Positions 17,386 through 28,479 of a stretch of DNA of 64,000 nt are shown one piece after another. This stretch comes from Flavobacteriales bacterium. Its GTDB lineage: Bacteria; Bacteroidota; Bacteroidia; Flavobacteriales_F; PHOS-HE28. How positions within the stretch are numbered: position 1 is the first letter of the stretch; each line of letters begins with the position of its first letter. Below the pieces are notes generated by a model. It was not told the origin of the DNA, did no database searches, and saw nothing but the letters and a program-made list of their open reading frames with translations. The position numbers and the translations under genes are program-made. The stretch covers positions 3,760,235 through 3,824,234 of the forward strand of contig CP129489.1 in NCBI GenBank assembly GCA_030584065.1. The letters are read 5' to 3'.

Positions 17386-20115
17386 TCAGGCCTCCGCCTC
17401 CACCTCGTCGAACTTCACGCCCACCCGCAACTCGTTGCGCACCACCAGGCGGCCGTTCTGCGGGCGCAGGAAGTAGAGCGCGTCCACCTCGCTCACAGGC
17501 TCCGGCGCGGCCGTGATGGCCATGAAGCCCAGGTCGCGCGCCATGCCTAGCACGGCCTTGCGGTTGATGGCATCCAGGCTGTGCACCTCGTCCAGGAAGA
17601 AGGGCACGCGGCTCAGCGGCTGGTGCGTCACCGCATCCTCCTTCAGCATGCTGCGCAGCACCAGCAGGTTGAACAGCACCTTGATGGTGATGGCCGTGCC
17701 GTGGCTCTCCACCTGCAGATTGTCGTAGTGGTGCACGCGGCCGCCCTTGATGGCCACGCTGAAGCGCAGCGTGAAGAGGTCGCCGTAGTGCAGCGTGATG
17801 CGCTCGCTGAGGCGGTTGCGGAAGCTCGCGTAGGCGGCATCCAGCTTCTTGCTGTCATCGAAGAGGCCGGTGTGGTCGGTCTCGGCCAGCTCGCGCAGCG
17901 GCTCCACCAGGTCGCTCTGCTCCATCACCTCCATGCGCAGGCTTTCGAGGTTCGAGACGCTCACCGTGCTGAAGCGGCGGTTCAGCTGCTCGGCGGCCTG
18001 CTTGATGTCGTGCAGCCCGTTCAGCACGTTGGCGAAGCTGGCGCGCAGCAGGTGCAGGTAGTTGTCCCAGTCCTTGCGCAGCGCCTCCTCGAAGGCCGGC
18101 AGGCCATCCAGCTGCTCGCGCATCAGGCGCACGGTATCGGCCTCCGTGGCGCCGATGATGTCGCCCTTCAGCACGTTCTCGATCTTGCTGCGCAGGCCAT
18201 CCATCTCGCGGCTCAGGTCCTTGTGCTCCACGGTGAGCTTCAGGTACAGCGCGATGGCATCCTCCGGGTCGTTGGGCACGCTGATGGGTTCCAGCGGCTT
18301 GGCCTCCGCATCGGGCGGCGGCGCGCATTGCTCCATCAGCCGCAGCAGACGGTTGAAGCGCTCGTCCTCCTTGTTCAGCGCGTTGCGCTGCTCATAGAGC
18401 TTCACGCTCAGTTCATCCAGCTTCTGGCGGGCCTCCACGCGCTGCGTCTCCGCGCCCGACTTCTCCTTGTTCAGCTCGGCCAGGCGCTTCTTCAGCTTCG
18501 GCTCGTCCTTGCGCTCCTCCTGCAGGCGTTCCCAGCGGCCCAGCCCATCGGCGATGCGGTCCACCGCCTTCTGCGCGGCGTCGCGCTCGGCCACCAGCTT
18601 GTCGCGGTTCTCGATCGCCGCCATCAGCTGCGTCAGGCGCTCCAGCTCGTGCTTGTGGTCGGCCAGCGACTTCTTCAGCGCCTTCACGTCCACCAGGTCC
18701 TTCCACGCATGGCTGTTGTCGGGCAGCGGCAGGCTCAGCACCGCGTCGCTGTACTTGCCGTCTTTGATGTTGGCGGCCAGCTCCTTCAGCAGGGCCTCCA
18801 GCTGCTTCTTCTTCTTGATCTCCACGCCGCCCTTGGCCACCGGCAGCTTCAGCAGGTCGATGTTGAAGAGCCGCGACACATCGTGCAGGCTCTGCTCGTC
18901 GATGCTGGCGCGCAGCGTGGTGATCAGTGCATGGTCGAATCCGGCGATGGCCTTCTCGGTGCTCGCCACGCGGTGCTTCGCCTCGGCCAGCGCGCGCTCG
19001 GTGCGGGCACGGTCGGCGCTCTGCGCGTTGCCCAGGCTGCGGTCCAGCAGCGCCAGCTTCTCCTTGGCATTGGCCAGGGCCTCGCGCTCCAGCTGCTCGC
19101 TGAAGTCCTCCAGGCCCTTGCCCAATTGCACCAGCCGGGCCATGTCGCCATCCACACGGCCCTTCATCCCGGCCAGCTCGGCGATCCGGTCGTCCAGGTT
19201 CTGCAGCCCGGCCACCATGCCCTCGCGCTCGCGCTCCAGCAGCTCGGTCTTGGCCACGATGGCCTCCTTCACGTGCTTGTTGTGGTCGTGGGCCTTGCGC
19301 CGCTTCTCCATCAGGTCGGCATGCACCACGGCCAGCCGCCCTTCCAGCTCGCTGCGCAGCGTGCTGCGCTCGATGTAGGTGCGCAGCCGGTCCTGCTCCG
19401 CCTTCAGCGTGTTCAGCTTCAGGCGGCGGTCGCGGATGCGCTCGAATTCCTCCGTCATCAGCTTGTTGGCCTCCAGCGCGGGCTTGCTAGGCGGCAGGCT
19501 GGCCAGCATCAGCAGGCTCCGCTTCATCTCATGCTGGTCGATGCTGCGCAGGCTCAGCAGGTTCTTCAGCACCTCCTTGAAGTGGGCGTACCGCTCGGTC
19601 TCGGTGAGCTGCACGATGCCCAGGCCGTTGCTCTCGCCCTTCGTGGCCACCAGCAGCGCCTCGCGGTGCAGCTGCGGCTCCTTCAGCTCGCGGTACTGCT
19701 TGCCCGCCAGGCGGCTCAGCACGTGCTTGGGCTCCGCCACGCGGCCGTCCTCGGTCAGGTAGTCGGCCACATCGTAGCCGCCATCATACGTGAAGCGCAC
19801 GGGGTCGCCGCTGCTGGCCTTGCTCACGCCGCGCCAGCCCAGCATGTAGGTGCCGCGCGGGCCGTTGCACTCGAACAGCAGGTAGCTGTAGTGGTCGGGG
19901 AAGTAGTACTCGCGCGTGGCCTCCATGTCGTGGTCGCCGAACACCATCTGGTTGCGGTGATCCAGGTAGAGGAACTGCAACGTGTTGATCAGCGTGGTCT
20001 TGCCCGCGTTGTTGGGGCCCACCAGCTGCAGGCTGCTGCCCAGCTCGATCTCAGCATAGTCGTAGCTGCCCGAGCGGATGGCGATGAGTTTCGAGGGTCC
20101 TAGTTGCATGTGCAT
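17386..20115 (-). CDS. mksB: SMC-like condensin ATPase, MksB/JetC-type
   Basis: 909 residues. The Walker A motif is GPNNAGKTT at 33-41, the signature region is ESHGTAITIKVLFNLL near 803, and Walker B is VPFFLDEVHSLD with the catalytic Glu at 843. The intervening sequence is long coiled coil with a short central region, giving an arm shorter than in canonical SMC. The N-terminal segment FPDHYSYLLFECNG and the GT-rich signature instead of LSGG match the MukB/MksB branch rather than Smc or Rad50. It would form the ATPase of a loop-extruding complex with the two upstream gene products. ATG at 20109 is an alternative start. A palindromic repeat separates it from the upstream gene. Confidence 0.75.
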   Translation of the reverse strand: MHMQLGPSKLIAIRSGSYDYAEIELGSSLQLVGPNNAGKTTLINTLQFLYLDHRNQMVFGDHDMEATREYYFPDHYSYLLFECNGPRGTYMLGWRGVSKASSGDPVRFTYDGGYDVADYLTEDGRVAEPKHVLSRLAGKQYRELKEPQLHREALLVATKGESNGLGIVQLTETERYAHFKEVLKNLLSLRSIDQHEMKRSLLMLASLPPSKPALEANKLMTEEFERIRDRRLKLNTLKAEQDRLRTYIERSTLRSELEGRLAVVHADLMEKRRKAHDHNKHVKEAIVAKTELLEREREGMVAGLQNLDDRIAELAGMKGRVDGDMARLVQLGKGLEDFSEQLEREALANAKEKLALLDRSLGNAQSADRARTERALAEAKHRVASTEKAIAGFDHALITTLRASIDEQSLHDVSRLFNIDLLKLPVAKGGVEIKKKKQLEALLKELAANIKDGKYSDAVLSLPLPDNSHAWKDLVDVKALKKSLADHKHELERLTQLMAAIENRDKLVAERDAAQKAVDRIADGLGRWERLQEERKDEPKLKKRLAELNKEKSGAETQRVEARQKLDELSVKLYEQRNALNKEDERFNRLLRLMEQCAPPPDAEAKPLEPISVPNDPEDAIALYLKLTVEHKDLSREMDGLRSKIENVLKGDIIGATEADTVRLMREQLDGLPAFEEALRKDWDNYLHLLRASFANVLNGLHDIKQAAEQLNRRFSTVSVSNLESLRMEVMEQSDLVEPLRELAETDHTGLFDDSKKLDAAYASFRNRLSERITLHYGDLFTLRFSVAIKGGRVHHYDNLQVESHGTAITIKVLFNLLVLRSMLKEDAVTHQPLSRVPFFLDEVHSLDAINRKAVLGMARDLGFMAITAAPEPVSEVDALYFLRPQNGRLVVRNELRVGVKFDEVEAEA

Positions 20116-20121
20116 CGGTTA

Positions 20122-20245
20122 TTCACCACAGAGGCACAGAGGGCACAGAGCATGAACGGAAGGTCCATGCGTCTTAGCTGCGATCGTGCGTGTGATGTCT
20201 TGCATTCTTTGATTTCCTCCGTGTCCTCTGTGCCTCTGTGGTGAA
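20122..20245. repeat. Inverted-repeat intergenic element (29-bp arms)
   Basis: The left arm at 20122-20150 and right arm at 20217-20245 are inverted copies with 27 of 29 positions identical (core CACAGAGGCACAGAGG). They flank about 66 bp of unique sequence. The element fills nearly all of the space between the MksE-like and SMC genes. Palindromes with this core occur in many environmental bacterial genomes as dispersed non-coding repeats; the origin is unknown. In RNA it would form a long stem-loop. Confidence 0.85.
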
Positions 20246-20250
20246 GCGCA

Positions 20251-20823
20251 CTAATTCATCTCCGGGTTGATCTCCCCGTCCTTCAGCGCGCTCCGGTGCT
20301 CCTGCTCGGCCACCTGGCTGATCTCCTGGCACTTGTCGAACACGCGGTGGAAGGGGCGCAGGAAGCGGAAGGTGTCATCCGGGAAGTACTCGGCCCAGCC
20401 CATGCGCGCCATGCTCTTGATCAGCTTGCGCATGCTCGCCTCATCGTCGATGCCCACGGCCTTCATGTGCGCCTTGAAGCGGTCGCTCGTCAGGTGCGGC
20501 AGGCCGGCCACGCTGAAGCGCTCGGTGAGCAGGTACTCTTCCACCGGACGGCCCTCGTTCGCGGTGGCCTCGATGAGGATGAAGCAGAACACGGCGATGG
20601 GAGGGAGGCTCGCTGGTGGTGGGGTGGCCTCGGCGGTCTCCGTGCGGAAGTAGAAGAAGTCGCGCGGGTGCCGCACCAGGTCCAGCCCCAGCGGCTTGAA
20701 GTACTCAGCGTACGCATCGTAGCGCTCGGTCAGCGGTCCATGCAGGTTGCCCTGCTCGTGCGTGATGTAGGCGCCCTGGCGCAGCTTGTCGAAGATGTCC
20801 TTGACGTAGGGAAGCTCGTTCAT
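20251..20823 (-). CDS. mksE: MksE/JetB-like condensin subunit
   Basis: 190 residues, acidic, largely alpha-helical, with two predicted winged-helix-like segments (PHLTSDRFKAHMKAVGIDD and MRKLIKSMARMGWAEYFPDD). No signal peptide or membrane segment. Size, fold pattern and position between a kleisin-like gene and an SMC-like gene identify it as the MukE/MksE/JetB-type subunit that binds the kleisin as a dimer. The start at 20823 overlaps the stop of the kleisin gene by 4 bp (ATGA). Primary sequence similarity within this family is low, so the call rests mainly on context. Confidence 0.65.
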   Translation of the reverse strand: MNELPYVKDIFDKLRQGAYITHEQGNLHGPLTERYDAYAEYFKPLGLDLVRHPRDFFYFRTETAEATPPPASLPPIAVFCFILIEATANEGRPVEEYLLTERFSVAGLPHLTSDRFKAHMKAVGIDDEASMRKLIKSMARMGWAEYFPDDTFRFLRPFHRVFDKCQEISQVAEQEHRSALKDGEINPEMN

Positions 20824-22043
20824 GGCTTGCTGATGCTGAAGGTGGTGGCCTCGATCACGCCGTCGCGCGTGCGGTAGGCCTTGGGCTTCCCGTGCTTGAA
20901 GGTCACGGTGAGCTCGGGGTCGAAGAGGATCCGGCTCAGGCCCAGCAGCGCGTCGCTGGTGCCCTTGTCCGGATAGGTCCTCACCATCCAATCGGTCAGG
21001 TCCTTAACCGGCAGCTCGGCGGCCAGGGCATCGGGCAGGGCCTTCAGCCACAGCAGGCGCACGTAGTCCGGCGGCGTCTCGGCGCTCTCCTCCATCCGCA
21101 GGCTCGGCGGCGGCTGCGGTGGGTGCGCCGCCACATGGTGTATGGTGCGCTTCAGCACCGCATCCGTGGGCGGGCACTCGATCGATGCCCGCTCGGCCTG
21201 CGGCACGTAGTGGGCCACCCAATCGTCCAGCTTCATGTGGCGCAGGCGCCCAAGCGCCAGCGTGGCCCCGTGGGCGATGGCGCTGCTGCGGCGCAGCACC
21301 TCATACAGCGGCTGCAGCTCCTTGCGGCTCTCGTTCAGCGTGTGGATGGCCCGGCGGCGCAGCGCACGGATCTGCCGCTCGTTGCGCAGCAGCGGCGCCA
21401 GCTCGGCGAACACCCCGGCCTCGCGCGCCGCGCTCAGCGCCGCATCCAGCTCGTTCAGCGTGTCCACCAGCTGGCCGTCCACGCGAACGATGTCCACCAG
21501 CGGCTGCACGTACAGGTCCATCAGCCGGACGATCCGCAGGTAGCGCTCGCGCACGCTCACGCTGCTCCGGTCCGCCTTGTACCGCGCCACCTCCGCCATC
21601 ACCGCGCGGTGCGTGGCGTCCAGGTCCTCTTGCATCCGGCGCAGCGTGTGGTCCACCTCCGTGGCCGCCAGCCCCACGCTCAGCGTGTCGAAGGCCTGAG
21701 TCCCGCTCGCGATCCGCTTGCGCGCGCTCTCCAGCGCCGCCGTGTAGCCCTGGATGATCTCCGGGCTCGTTGGCAGCGCATCATCGTGCAGGTAGTTCAT
21801 CAGCTGCAGCAGCGGCTGCGCCAGCACATAGTGGCTGCTGCCTTCCTCCAGCGGCACCAGGATCTGCAGCTCCAGCAGCCGTTGCCAAGTCGTTTCCGGC
21901 TGCTCGGTGGCGGTGTCGCAATGGGTGCGGATCAGCTGCCGTACCTGCGCTTCGCTCACATCGCCCGGCTTCGTGGCAATGGCGTGCAGCAGCGGCACAT
22001 GGCTGGCGCAGAAGTCGAAGAAGCGTTTCGGCGCTATGGGCAT
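20820..22043 (-). CDS. mksF: MksF/JetA-like kleisin subunit
   Basis: 407 residues, soluble and mainly helical. The N-terminal about 90 residues look like a winged helix (EAQVRQLIRTHCDTATEQ, WQRLLELQILVPL), followed by a helical bundle with coiled-coil character (about 100-260) and a C-terminal winged-helix-like region ending in VIEATTFSISKP. This is the arrangement of MukF/MksF/JetA kleisins. It is the first gene of a three-gene run and overlaps the MksE-like gene by 4 bp. Assignment is by domain layout and operon position; a search against MksF and DUF3375 profiles would settle the subtype. Confidence 0.6.
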   Translation of the reverse strand: MPIAPKRFFDFCASHVPLLHAIATKPGDVSEAQVRQLIRTHCDTATEQPETTWQRLLELQILVPLEEGSSHYVLAQPLLQLMNYLHDDALPTSPEIIQGYTAALESARKRIASGTQAFDTLSVGLAATEVDHTLRRMQEDLDATHRAVMAEVARYKADRSSVSVRERYLRIVRLMDLYVQPLVDIVRVDGQLVDTLNELDAALSAAREAGVFAELAPLLRNERQIRALRRRAIHTLNESRKELQPLYEVLRRSSAIAHGATLALGRLRHMKLDDWVAHYVPQAERASIECPPTDAVLKRTIHHVAAHPPQPPPSLRMEESAETPPDYVRLLWLKALPDALAAELPVKDLTDWMVRTYPDKGTSDALLGLSRILFDPELTVTFKHGKPKAYRTRDGVIEATTFSISKP

Positions 22044-22730: not shown

Positions 22731-23954
22731 TTACTGTTTCACCACCCTCCCGGTTCGCACCGAGCCGTCGGCGCTGTGCGCTTCCACGGTGTAGAGGCCG
22801 GCGGGTAGCGCACCCAGGTCGAGCATGAGCATCGAAGCGGTGAGCGCATCCTGCTGCAGGGCGCAGCGACCGGTGGCATCCAGAAGGCGCACCATGCGAA
22901 GGGGCTGCTCAGCGCTCAGTTGCACCCGGTCCAGGGTGGGGTTGGGGTAGATCGCTTCCGCTGGTAGCACCAGGGCGTTCAGGCTCGTGGAACCTCCTGT
23001 GTACTCCACGGCAGCACCGGGAATGGTGTTGTGGCCACCATTGGGTCCGGTGTTGCCGGGCTGCACCGTACCGTAGTACTGCGGCCCAAGCACATAGGGG
23101 AAGGCGGGTTCATATTGGTCGTTCAGCGTCACGAAGTAGGCGTAGGTTCCGGCCGGGTATTCGGGCGTGATGCAGAAGCGGCCGTTGTGCACGTCCAAGT
23201 CGCCGCTGCCCGCCACGTATTCATAGTCCTCCAGGAAGGCGCCCAACGCGTATTGCCCGCCGATGGCCGGTCCGTACTGGTTGGCTTGCAGCACCTTGCC
23301 GTTGGGCAATGTGGTGCGCTCGGTAATGGCGCGCAACTGATAGCTGCTGCGCATGCGGATGATGCCGCCGCTGCCATCAGGGTTCGCGTAACCATGCGCC
23401 CCGTAGATGGGGTAGCCATCGAACGCGTAGCCGATCAGGTCGCTGTGCTGCTCATCGTCCAGGTGGTCGTAGAGGCAGTTGGGGCTCACATGGTGGTGGT
23501 ACTCGCCGTTGGGGGCGGGATGTCCCAGGCACGCATCGAAGCTGATGCCCTCCCACACCAGTGCATCGCGGTTCCAGATGCCCTGGTTGTTGTAGCTCAT
23601 GCCGTCCTTGGCGTTGAAGATGCTCACGCCGTTGCGCCACACGCCGATGTGACCGAGCGGGGTGTTCACCAAGGTGCCCGTGTTGAGCGTGGGGTTGCGC
23701 GTGATGTGGAAGCAGAAGTCCTGGTTGGCGGGCAGGTTGGGGTTGGCCGCCCAGGGCCCGATGTCGTAGCCGGGGATGCATGTGCTGGTCACGTAGACAT
23801 CGTTGGCGGTGTAGTGCACGCTGAGCACATTGGTGGCGATGCCGCCGTAGCCCGTTTCGCTGCCGGGGTTGATGATCCAGGAGGTGATCACCGGGGATTG
23901 GGCGGTGGTGCCCAGGCCCAGCAACAGGCCCAAGGTGTTCAGGAGGATTCGCAT
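22731..23954 (-). CDS. YHYH domain protein with T9SS type A sorting domain
   Basis: 407 residues. A signal peptide (ILLNTLGLLLGLGTTAQS) leads into a YHYH domain recognised by NGEYHHHVSPNCLYDH and YAFDGYPIYGAHGY. The last about 75 residues form a type A sorting domain (AEAIYPNPTLDRVQLSAE, then DLGALPAGLYTVEAH and a basic end VRTGRVVKQ), which directs outer-membrane translocation and cell-surface attachment by the T9SS encoded at 39112-49550. The function of the YHYH domain is unknown; the conserved His cluster suggests metal binding. It lies 45 bp downstream of the CotH-family gene on the same strand. Confidence 0.88.
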   Translation of the reverse strand: MRILLNTLGLLLGLGTTAQSPVITSWIINPGSETGYGGIATNVLSVHYTANDVYVTSTCIPGYDIGPWAANPNLPANQDFCFHITRNPTLNTGTLVNTPLGHIGVWRNGVSIFNAKDGMSYNNQGIWNRDALVWEGISFDACLGHPAPNGEYHHHVSPNCLYDHLDDEQHSDLIGYAFDGYPIYGAHGYANPDGSGGIIRMRSSYQLRAITERTTLPNGKVLQANQYGPAIGGQYALGAFLEDYEYVAGSGDLDVHNGRFCITPEYPAGTYAYFVTLNDQYEPAFPYVLGPQYYGTVQPGNTGPNGGHNTIPGAAVEYTGGSTSLNALVLPAEAIYPNPTLDRVQLSAEQPLRMVRLLDATGRCALQQDALTASMLMLDLGALPAGLYTVEAHSADGSVRTGRVVKQ

Positions 23955-23999
23955 GGCGATTGGACCGATGGAAGAAGGAAAGGTTCGATTGCCCGTGGT

Positions 24000-26330
24000 T
24001 CAATACACCACCACGCGTCCCACCCGCGCAACCTGCCCATCGCGGCGCAGCGTGTAGAGGTAGGTGCCGGCCCCGGGCAGTTCAAGCGGCGTGTCGCAGA
24101 GCCCGGGTGGCAGCCGCAGCTGCGTCACGGGTCGGCCCACCGCATCATGGATGTTCAGCGTCCAATCGGCATCGGCATCCAGCATGCCGCGGAAGCGCAC
24201 GAGGCCATCGGAGGGGTTGGGCAGGCAGGTGAATTCCGGCGCGGTCCGATCGGGCACGCCCACGCCTTGGCAGAGGCCGGGGATGTTCGCATCCAGCCAG
24301 GCCAGGCGCAGGTCGATCCAGTGCTTCAGGGTATCCAGCTCGGCGGCATAGGTGGTGGCGCAGGGCAGCACCTCGGGCGCGGGGCCGCTCACGCCGAGGA
24401 TGGGCCACTTCTGGAAGTGCCGTTCCTGCGCCTCGGCCACCAGCGTGCCCACGCTGTCGATCCACGCGTGGATGGAAGCGTTGGACAGCACACCGGTGCG
24501 GTGCTCCTCGTAGGTGCAGCGCAGTTCGTTCGCGAAGGTGCTGTCCTGCATCAGACGAATGGCCCACCCGGTGGAGTAGTTGTCGGTGACGCAATCGTTG
24601 ATGCGGTGCGCCCAGCCGCTACCGTCGGTGTTGCTGAAGAGCTCGCAACCCCACAGGTTCTTCCAGGCCCAGTCGAAGTCCCACACGGGCCCGGCCTTGA
24701 GCTTGCCGTCGTTGCTGTTGCGGTCCTTGTGGAAGAACACGCTCTTCTTGAAGCCATCGTTGTTGCGCGCCAGCTCGTTCACCAGGAAGTAGTTGATGAA
24801 GGAGGGCACGTCCAGGTAGGCGCGGTAGCCGGTGGCCGGGTCGGTGAATGTGCTGCTGTAGAGCGCGGTCTCCAGGGTGTCCACGAAGGAGGCGATGTAG
24901 GCCTTCTGCGCATCGGTGATCACATCGGGCTCGGGGTAGTCGTAGAGGAAGTGCACATCGAAGCCGGGATGGTCGATGGGGGAATAATTGGACTGGAAGC
25001 TGTTCTGCGGGTTCCAGAGGTTCTGCTCCAGGATGTAGCCGCCGGTGCGGGGTTCGCCGGTGTTCTCGATGCTGTCCAGGCGGGCGATGTCCACGCGGCC
25101 GTTGTCGCGCTTGATGGTCTCGGCGAGCACATAGATGCCGCGGTAGGCGCTATCGAGCAGCACTTCGCACAGGTGCATGCGCGGCGCATATTGCCCCATG
25201 GCGCGCGCCAGGTGCGTGGCCAGCGCGTTGCGCACCAGCGAGCGGTCGTTGTAATTGCTCAGGAGCGCCCAGTCGTTCTCAGCGGGCATGCCCAGCAGCG
25301 GCACGTTGTTGTTGCTGCCGTCGGCGTTGCGCGTCTCGATGCTGAAGGGCGTCTGCGGATATCCGGCGGAGGTGGCGCCCCGGATGCCGATGCCGATGGT
25401 GCCGTTGTACTCATTGCTGGGGTCGGTGACCTGCGTGAAGGTGCCGGGCCCGTTGTACATCACCTCCATCTGCGCGGTGATCTTGCCGGTGTAGGGGATC
25501 GGCTGCCCCTGAGTGTGCAGGAGCACGATGGGCAGACGTGTGCTGTCCAGTTGCACCACGCCCAGGTCCTCCACGCAGAGCTCGAAGGCGCCCGCACCGC
25601 CACCATAGCCGAACACCTGGATGAAGAGCGTCTGGCCGGCCGGGAGCTCGTTGGCCGTGAGGCGCGAGAAGTAGCCTTCGCCGCCATCGTCATCGCATCC
25701 CTGCAGCGCGAGGCTGAAGCAGCTGGGGCCGGTCCACAGCGCCACGCCGGTGTCGTTGAGGCCGCCCGTGCTGGCGGTGCTCACGAGCACATTGCCCGAG
25801 GGCGGCACGGGCATGGCGTACCAGATATCCTGTCCGTTGTAGTTGGCACACCCGGGGTTGAAGCCGCTGCCCGGGGCGCCGCTGTTGTTGGTCACCACGC
25901 AATCCACCGTGTCGATGGGCAGCGCGGTGCAGGGCACGGTGCCGGGCAGGGGCACCACGGAGCAATCCGCCGTGCCGGTGAATACCGTGCCGGTGGCGGG
26001 CTCCGGTCCATCGGCGAAGAGCACATTGCCGTAGGTGCCCACCAGCTGGTAGGTGTTCTCGTTCTCCCAGTCGCCGCTGCTGTAGATGAGCTGGATGGCA
26101 TCGCCGGTGCACGCGGTGAACACGGCGGTGCTGGCTTCACCCGCAGCAGCGAACACGCCCACGGAGGTCCCGTTTATCCGTACTTCCAACTGGCCGCCGT
26201 TCCAGCCGTCGCCGTAGCTGTCCTGCATCAGCAGGTGGTGGTCGCAGCATTGGGCGTGCAGGGCGGTGGGGGCCAAGCCGGACAGGGGGAGCAACGCCCG
26301 GCATAGAAGCGCGCGCATGGAGAGGGGCAT
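24000..26330 (-). CDS. CotH kinase family protein, T9SS-exported
   Basis: 776 residues. A signal peptide ends near TALHAQ; next comes a Bacteroidota surface domain with QDSYGDGWNGGQLEV (about 30-110), then a second beta-rich domain with YNGQDIWYAMP (about 130-240), then the CotH kinase domain (about 260-660) with YRGIYVLAETIKRDNGRVD, RTGGYILEQN and the metal/ATP motif AGPVWDFDWAWKN. The C-terminal about 75 residues resemble a T9SS sorting domain (CLPNPSDGLVRFRG, GAGTYLYTLRRDG). CotH proteins phosphorylate secreted proteins on Ser in spore coats; a surface protein kinase is therefore possible here. ATG at 26318 is an alternative start. Confidence 0.85.
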   Translation of the reverse strand: MPLSMRALLCRALLPLSGLAPTALHAQCCDHHLLMQDSYGDGWNGGQLEVRINGTSVGVFAAAGEASTAVFTACTGDAIQLIYSSGDWENENTYQLVGTYGNVLFADGPEPATGTVFTGTADCSVVPLPGTVPCTALPIDTVDCVVTNNSGAPGSGFNPGCANYNGQDIWYAMPVPPSGNVLVSTASTGGLNDTGVALWTGPSCFSLALQGCDDDGGEGYFSRLTANELPAGQTLFIQVFGYGGGAGAFELCVEDLGVVQLDSTRLPIVLLHTQGQPIPYTGKITAQMEVMYNGPGTFTQVTDPSNEYNGTIGIGIRGATSAGYPQTPFSIETRNADGSNNNVPLLGMPAENDWALLSNYNDRSLVRNALATHLARAMGQYAPRMHLCEVLLDSAYRGIYVLAETIKRDNGRVDIARLDSIENTGEPRTGGYILEQNLWNPQNSFQSNYSPIDHPGFDVHFLYDYPEPDVITDAQKAYIASFVDTLETALYSSTFTDPATGYRAYLDVPSFINYFLVNELARNNDGFKKSVFFHKDRNSNDGKLKAGPVWDFDWAWKNLWGCELFSNTDGSGWAHRINDCVTDNYSTGWAIRLMQDSTFANELRCTYEEHRTGVLSNASIHAWIDSVGTLVAEAQERHFQKWPILGVSGPAPEVLPCATTYAAELDTLKHWIDLRLAWLDANIPGLCQGVGVPDRTAPEFTCLPNPSDGLVRFRGMLDADADWTLNIHDAVGRPVTQLRLPPGLCDTPLELPGAGTYLYTLRRDGQVARVGRVVVY

Positions 26331-26337
26331 GTTGCCG

Positions 26338-26345
26338 TGAAAGTA
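26338..26345 (-). promoter_or_regulatory. Possible -7 element (TACTTTCA) for the CotH gene
   Basis: Minus-strand TACTTTCA, one base from TAnnTTYG, ends 7 nt before the start at 26330. The same octamer occurs at 22095-22102 upstream of the kleisin-like gene. Confidence 0.3.
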
Positions 26346-26400
26346 GGGGAGCGGCACCATTCTCAGCCGGCCACCCCTGGCCGTTGACGCCGTGCCGCGT

Positions 26401-26709
26401 TCATCCAGGGTGCGTCCCCAGCTTGCGCACCATTTCCTGCGTCAGGGCCGAGGCATCAGGCCCATAGGCGTTCACCAGCGTGCCCTTGATGCGCCCGTCC
26501 TTGGAGCGGATGGCGTAGACGATGCTCTGGTCGTCGGGGTCGTTCATGCCCTCGAAGCGGTGGAACTCATCGATTTCGAACGCCGCAGGATCCAGGCTTA
26601 TGCCGTGCGCGTCGCATACCAGGCAATGGCCGCCCAAGGCCAGGTCGTCCGTGTAGCCGCGGCGCTGCAGGTCGGTTACGGCTTCCGAGAGGGTGGAATA
26701 GGTGCGCAT
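26401..26709 (-). CDS. Small conserved Bacteroidota protein (often labelled phosphoribosylpyrophosphate synthetase)
   Basis: 102-residue soluble protein starting MRTYSTLSEAVTDLQRRGY. It contains CLVCDAHGISLDP, DEFHRFEGMNDPDDQSIVYA and a C-terminal NAYGPDASALTQEMVRKL. The family is common in Bacteroidota and often carries the label phosphoribosylpyrophosphate synthetase in databases, but it is far too short for that enzyme and lacks its PRPP and ATP motifs; I regard the label as a misannotation and the function as unknown. The pair of Cys (CLVC) is a possible metal or redox site. The start at 26709 was chosen over 26781 because the extension runs into the groL terminator. Confidence 0.75.
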   Translation of the reverse strand: MRTYSTLSEAVTDLQRRGYTDDLALGGHCLVCDAHGISLDPAAFEIDEFHRFEGMNDPDDQSIVYAIRSKDGRIKGTLVNAYGPDASALTQEMVRKLGTHPG

Positions 26710-26760
26710 AACTGCAAGATAGGCCGCCTGGCGACGGAGCGGACCCGCGGCGGCCGCACC

Positions 26761-26794
26761 CAAAGCAACGGGCCCCGGCATTCACCGGGGCCCG
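26761..26794 (-). terminator. Terminator-like hairpin after groL
   Basis: On the minus strand CGGGCCCCGG and CCGGGGCCCG form a perfect 10-bp stem with a 6-nt loop, followed by TTGCTTTG. It lies about 33 bp after the groL stop. The T-tract is short, so efficiency is uncertain. Confidence 0.6.

Positions 26795-26826: not shown

Positions 26827-28479
<1,653 letters not shown>

Follow-up and report, generated by a model that had tools for sequence, protein, structure and literature searches.

The stretch of DNA analysed here (the window, 64,000 nucleotides) belongs to the genome of a Flavobacteriales bacterium (G000), a single contig of 3.92 Mb with 99.97% completeness, and carries a three-gene operon on the reverse strand. 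The first gene (20820..22043) encodes a MukF/JetA-like kleisin of 407 aa matching NF040857 (E=1.9e-20). It is followed by the gene of the kite subunit MksE (20251..20823; 190 aa; PF21980, E=1.8e-25), whose start overlaps the kleisin stop by 4 nt (ATGA), and by that of an MksB-type SMC ATPase (17386..20115; 909 aa; NF040859, E=8.4e-37). These profile matches confirmed the original prediction of a kleisin-like, an MksE-like and an MksB-branch SMC protein. MksE scored 90.6 bits against PF21980, well above the Pfam threshold (cut-off 27). The NCBIfam Mks models, whose names are swapped relative to common usage ('MksB' for the kleisin and 'MksF' for the SMC), covered most or nearly all of the length of each protein; the scores stayed far below the equivalog cut-offs, which represent P. 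aeruginosa MksBEF (126.5, 69.7 and 73 bits vs 1900, 400 and 750). The PADLOC JetC model matched the SMC weakly (E=0.0024), with the best stretch near Walker A. Sequence profiles searched against the PDB returned nothing useful, but fold comparison did give matches: an AlphaFold model of the kleisin (mean pLDDT 77) yielded 13 PDB matches at E<0.001, all of them MukF-containing MukBEF/MukEF entries (best 4e-8), and the next match was chain A of PA14 JetABC (E=0.022). The overall TM-scores were low, as expected of a flexible kleisin, so that the fold match supports homology and not detailed structure. With a MukB-like SMC ATPase, an MksE kite and a MukF/MksF-type kleisin, the operon encodes an MksBEF condensin.

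Wadjet systems detect small circles through JetABC and cut them with JetD (PMC10586767). The operon resembles these JetABCD (MksBEFG) systems in its kleisin, kite and MukB-like SMC, but differs from them in that JetD is missing. The Pfam model of JetD, PF09983, had no match in G000 or in 34 other genomes of the genus (first sample). As a sole test, this model proved too insensitive, matching at E<=0.01 in only 9 of 46 genomes of relatives, while a profile of short JetD proteins found a gene adjoining smc in most loci of the same 46 genomes. Since PF09983 is weak on short JetDs, such profiles had been built from the relatives' own fourth genes. They had no match in the window or at about 40 loci of the genus, even at E<1, which bore out the earlier statement that no nuclease gene lies on either side of the operon; the whole G000 genome was likewise negative. 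By both PF09983 and the short-JetD profiles, window and genome were negative for the JetD/MksG Toprim nuclease of Wadjet systems.

Among the 19 genomes of the genus that carry smc, a short JetD was present in one (G060) and missing from the other 18. This orphan gene (L212:6578-7420, contig C90) is intact, adjoins a type II cas9 (L212:1467-5855) and lies on a different contig from, and thus unlinked to, the G060 mksBEF operon. Its product is 37-42% identical to the JetD proteins of the relatives, which is compatible with a JetD-bearing ancestor. The orphan also lends some substance to the idea, raised in the original prediction, that plasmids are cut with the help of a borrowed nuclease encoded at another locus. 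In G000 this idea found no support, as no JetD-type nuclease was found anywhere in the one-contig assembly by either kind of profile; although a nuclease of an unrelated family might escape recognition by sequence, we hold borrowing to be very unlikely.

Relatives were sought by an SMC-alignment scan of 84,980 species genomes, of which the best 80 loci were used. Among these, the nearest relatives outside the genus were systems of Verrucomicrobiota and Acidobacteriota, with 36-43% identity along the whole SMC, together with an Anaerolineae MAG whose SMC is 32% identical. The kleisin (39-46%) and MksE (43-50%) of the Verrucomicrobiota/Acidobacteriota systems agreed with the SMC affinity, so that identity to the nearest relatives of all three groups ranges roughly from 32 to 50% by subunit. 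Ten close relatives from outside the genus have an intact locus (Verrucomicrobiota, Acidobacteriota and Anaerolineae; the decayed L145 was excluded), and every one of them shows the order kleisin-mksE-smc-jetD, mostly with overlapping genes. The Verrucomicrobiota/Acidobacteriota systems (L129-L138) hence share the gene order of the window operon and differ from it by a fourth Toprim gene directly behind smc. In the relatives, this gene overlaps or abuts the smc stop and encodes a protein of ~285 aa with a conserved Toprim glutamate, a DxD pair and a C-terminal LEQE. It matched JetD_C and DUF7281 weakly, and a structural model of it had topoisomerase VI subunit A as the only PDB matches below E=0.001. 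At the position of the MksE IFDR motif, a reported JetD contact (PMC10586767), the genus has IFDK and the relatives mostly I/VFD/ER, a conservative change.

In an SMC tree of 73 rows, the 10 rows of the genus, none of which has JetD, grouped with 34 rows that all possess it. A smaller and more careful tree united the genus with the Verrucomicrobiota/Acidobacteriota systems with full support, and a grouping with the common Bacteroidota MksB clade was rejected on it (AU p=0.0185). Because the genus is nested in an otherwise entirely JetD-positive part of the tree, loss of JetD is the best reading of its absence. The simplest course would be a single loss in the common ancestor of the genus clade, the direction being set by outgroup parsimony. 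The earlier suggestion of a module that had lost its nuclease, and with it a putative JetABCD-like ancestor, is well supported by the four-gene relatives and the SMC tree.

The remaining subunits bear the marks of selection. Walker A (GPNNAGKT, SMC residues 33-40; 19996..20019), the ABC signature (SHGT, residues 804-807; 17695..17706) and Walker B (D842-E843; 17587..17592) are all present on the reverse strand, and N35, N36, G38, K39, S804, G806, T807, D842 and E843 were invariant in an alignment of the window SMC with others (A1, nine diverse SMC sequences). Across the genus, the reading frames are intact and the ATPase motifs invariant at 72-76% protein identity. Kleisin, mksE and smc are under purifying selection with dN/dS of 0.07-0.46, similar to neighbouring genes, the dS in this estimate being uncertain owing to a GC3 above 0.9. 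Such conservation is hard to reconcile with a decaying remnant left behind by JetD loss, a reading that could draw on the lost nuclease itself, on genus members that lack the operon, on a copy in G018 (C19) whose match was reported to contain a TGA, and on an smc fragment in G061; we consider it most improbable. With JetD gone and the other subunits under selection, a function independent of JetD cutting probably keeps the genes.

The MksBEF operon was detected in 19 of 45 genomes of the genus and was missing from the other 26. Where the contig extends far enough, it mostly lies behind groEL (in the window at 26827..28464, reverse strand; Cpn60_TCP1), a chromosomal neighbour whose conserved synteny shows where the operon is inserted in this genus. 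The sister genomes G062 and G015 show a clean presence/absence of the operon between groEL and a DUF4139 gene. Mapped on a groEL tree, a single gene that may itself recombine, its presence required about nine changes, at least five of them forced by well-supported branches and hardly fewer than with shuffled labels, the pattern of gain and loss that accessory genes and defence genes show. A recent foreign origin by composition was rejected, GC and GC3 of the operon matching those of its neighbours; between G000 and G018, operon dS resembles flank dS and gives no sign of a recent transfer.

Several features of individual loci were recorded as well. Between groEL and the kleisin gene, the window holds YHYH and CotH genes and a small ORF (22731-26781); by tblastn, none of these was detected in the corresponding interval of the other genus loci. 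The mksE-smc spacer (20116..20250, reverse strand) contains a near-perfect inverted repeat with two exact arms holding CACCACAGAGGCACAGAGG (fold -63 kcal/mol, z -8.2). It was seen only in this species and was absent from the other genus loci; it could be a small mobile repeat or could influence smc expression. No Bacteroidota promoter consensus was found 5' of the kleisin gene. In G061, the C-terminal smc fragment (L214:7192-7299) lies ~2 kb downstream of the intact operon and is a vestige of another copy.

Smc5/6 restricts extrachromosomal DNA. By analogy, the operon might still serve defence, with MksBEF loading on small circular foreign DNA and silencing, sequestering or compacting it without cutting. 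Its patchy distribution, with repeated gain and loss in the genus, and its kinship to nuclease-bearing systems of the Wadjet kind fit this idea. However, whether or not the operon is present, the groEL site does not resemble a defence island (a judgement on its neighbours made partly by eye), and the occurrence of nuclease-less MksBEF across several families of Bacteroidia looks like that of a core function, so that we regard non-cutting defence as rather unlikely.

The chromosomal background was assessed by searching for ScpA with PF02616 and for full-length Smc with TIGR02168 at its cut-off. Neither was detected in any of the 35 genus genomes searched, G000 and 34 others. The original prediction had assumed that Bacteroidota usually have Smc-ScpAB and had called the presence of an MksBEF operon notable on that ground. 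A survey of 236 Bacteroidia genomes of >=95% completeness overturned both points: ScpA was found in 54 and MksE in 74 of them. What is unusual about the window operon is instead its loss of JetD together with its kinship to Verrucomicrobiota/Acidobacteriota systems. Full-length Smc over cut-off occurred only in the four ScpA-positive genomes among the genomes searched. MksE and ScpA were found together in 9 of the 236 genomes, fewer than expected (Fisher OR 0.36, p=0.008; the test ignores phylogeny). A short JetD was present in 8 of the 74 MksE-positive genomes, and all nine such genes lay within ~6 kb of MksE on the same contig. The remaining 66 genomes are an upper bound on nuclease-less systems, as long or divergent JetDs (G035, G054) escape the profile. 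Nuclease-less MksBEF was seen in numerous genomes and genera spread over several families of Bacteroidia.

The short MksBEF common in Bacteroidota (L055, L056, L172) is likewise nuclease-less, with an SMC of ~870-900 aa, and two of these loci (L055, L056) sit in ScpA-less genomes, as the window operon does. It differs from the latter in gene order (smc-kleisin-mksE) and forms a separate clade, other Bacteroidota MksB proteins being only ~22% identical to the window SMC. JetD-positive members of this common clade have the order smc-jetD-kleisin-mksE, and repeated loss of JetD seems to have taken place there, too. P. aeruginosa MksBEF, a nuclease-less chromosomal condensin (PMC7485682, PMC10586767), has been proposed to derive from JetABCD through loss of JetD (PMC10586767). 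Like the window operon, it has three subunits with a MukB-like SMC, and no JetD/MksG is reported there; unlike the window operon, it belongs to an organism that also has Smc-ScpAB, which is undetectable in the genus of the window, and the sequences of the two are far apart (the window SMC scored 126 bits with NF040859, whose curated cut-off is 1900). Nuclease-less MksBEF was thus known already, and the window operon is a further, phylogenetically separate case.

Taken together, we think it probable that the operon encodes an MksBEF complex derived from a four-gene MksBEFG/JetABCD-like system minus its nuclease, and that this complex would act as a loop extruder, mainly on the chromosome, as an optional condensin. 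According to this proposal, the gene lost from the ancestral system would be the fourth one, coding for a short Toprim nuclease (JetD/DUF7281 type), and kleisin, MksE and SMC would form a machine that uses ATP to extrude DNA loops but has ceased to cut. ATP-dependent loop extrusion is expected of the complex from its homology to MukBEF, to JetABC and to the MksBEF of P. aeruginosa. Its site of action would most likely be the chromosome of a lineage without detectable Smc-ScpAB: a chromosomal role is favoured by the absence of Smc-ScpAB, by a neighbourhood unlike that of defence genes and by the wider pattern in the class, whereas the patchy distribution speaks for an optional or defence-like one. 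As the 26 genus genomes without MksBEF, where searched, lack Smc-ScpAB as well, the operon is not an essential condensin. A broader version of the proposal, possible though tentative, is that nuclease-less MksBEFs arising by repeated JetD loss are the main chromosome condensins of ScpAB-less Bacteroidia, the genus being a separate case of a change from defence to condensin.

No known condensin was found in two Bacteroidetes mapped by Hi-C (PMC10197239), and which condensin folds the Bacteroidota chromosome is an open question on which the genus bears. It offers close relatives with and without nuclease-less MksBEF at one conserved site and no confounding Smc-ScpAB, and the idea that chromosomal MksBEF arose from plasmid-cutting systems via nuclease loss becomes directly testable there. 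Moreover, short JetD-like Toprim proteins near DUF7281 are often missed by PF09983, and some systems that count as 'nuclease-less' by this model may be misfiled.

Short Toprim proteins of ~265-330 aa were seen behind the mks smc at L129, L131, L135, L150, L164, L189 and other loci; they mostly matched DUF7281 better than JetD_C, and PF09983 missed many of them. A second Bacteroidia type (L053, L058, L060, L061) combines a MukB-like SMC of 825-1204 aa with a kleisin and MksE, with no JetD seen alongside; the two SMCs tested matched the MukB N-terminal model PF04310. A weak JetD_C match was noted behind smc at L059. Finally, Nonlabens, Arenibacter and another member of the Flavobacteriaceae (L164, L175, L187) carry very similar smc-jetD-kleisin-mksE operons, and the differing neighbours of the L164 and L187 operons suggest recent horizontal spread.
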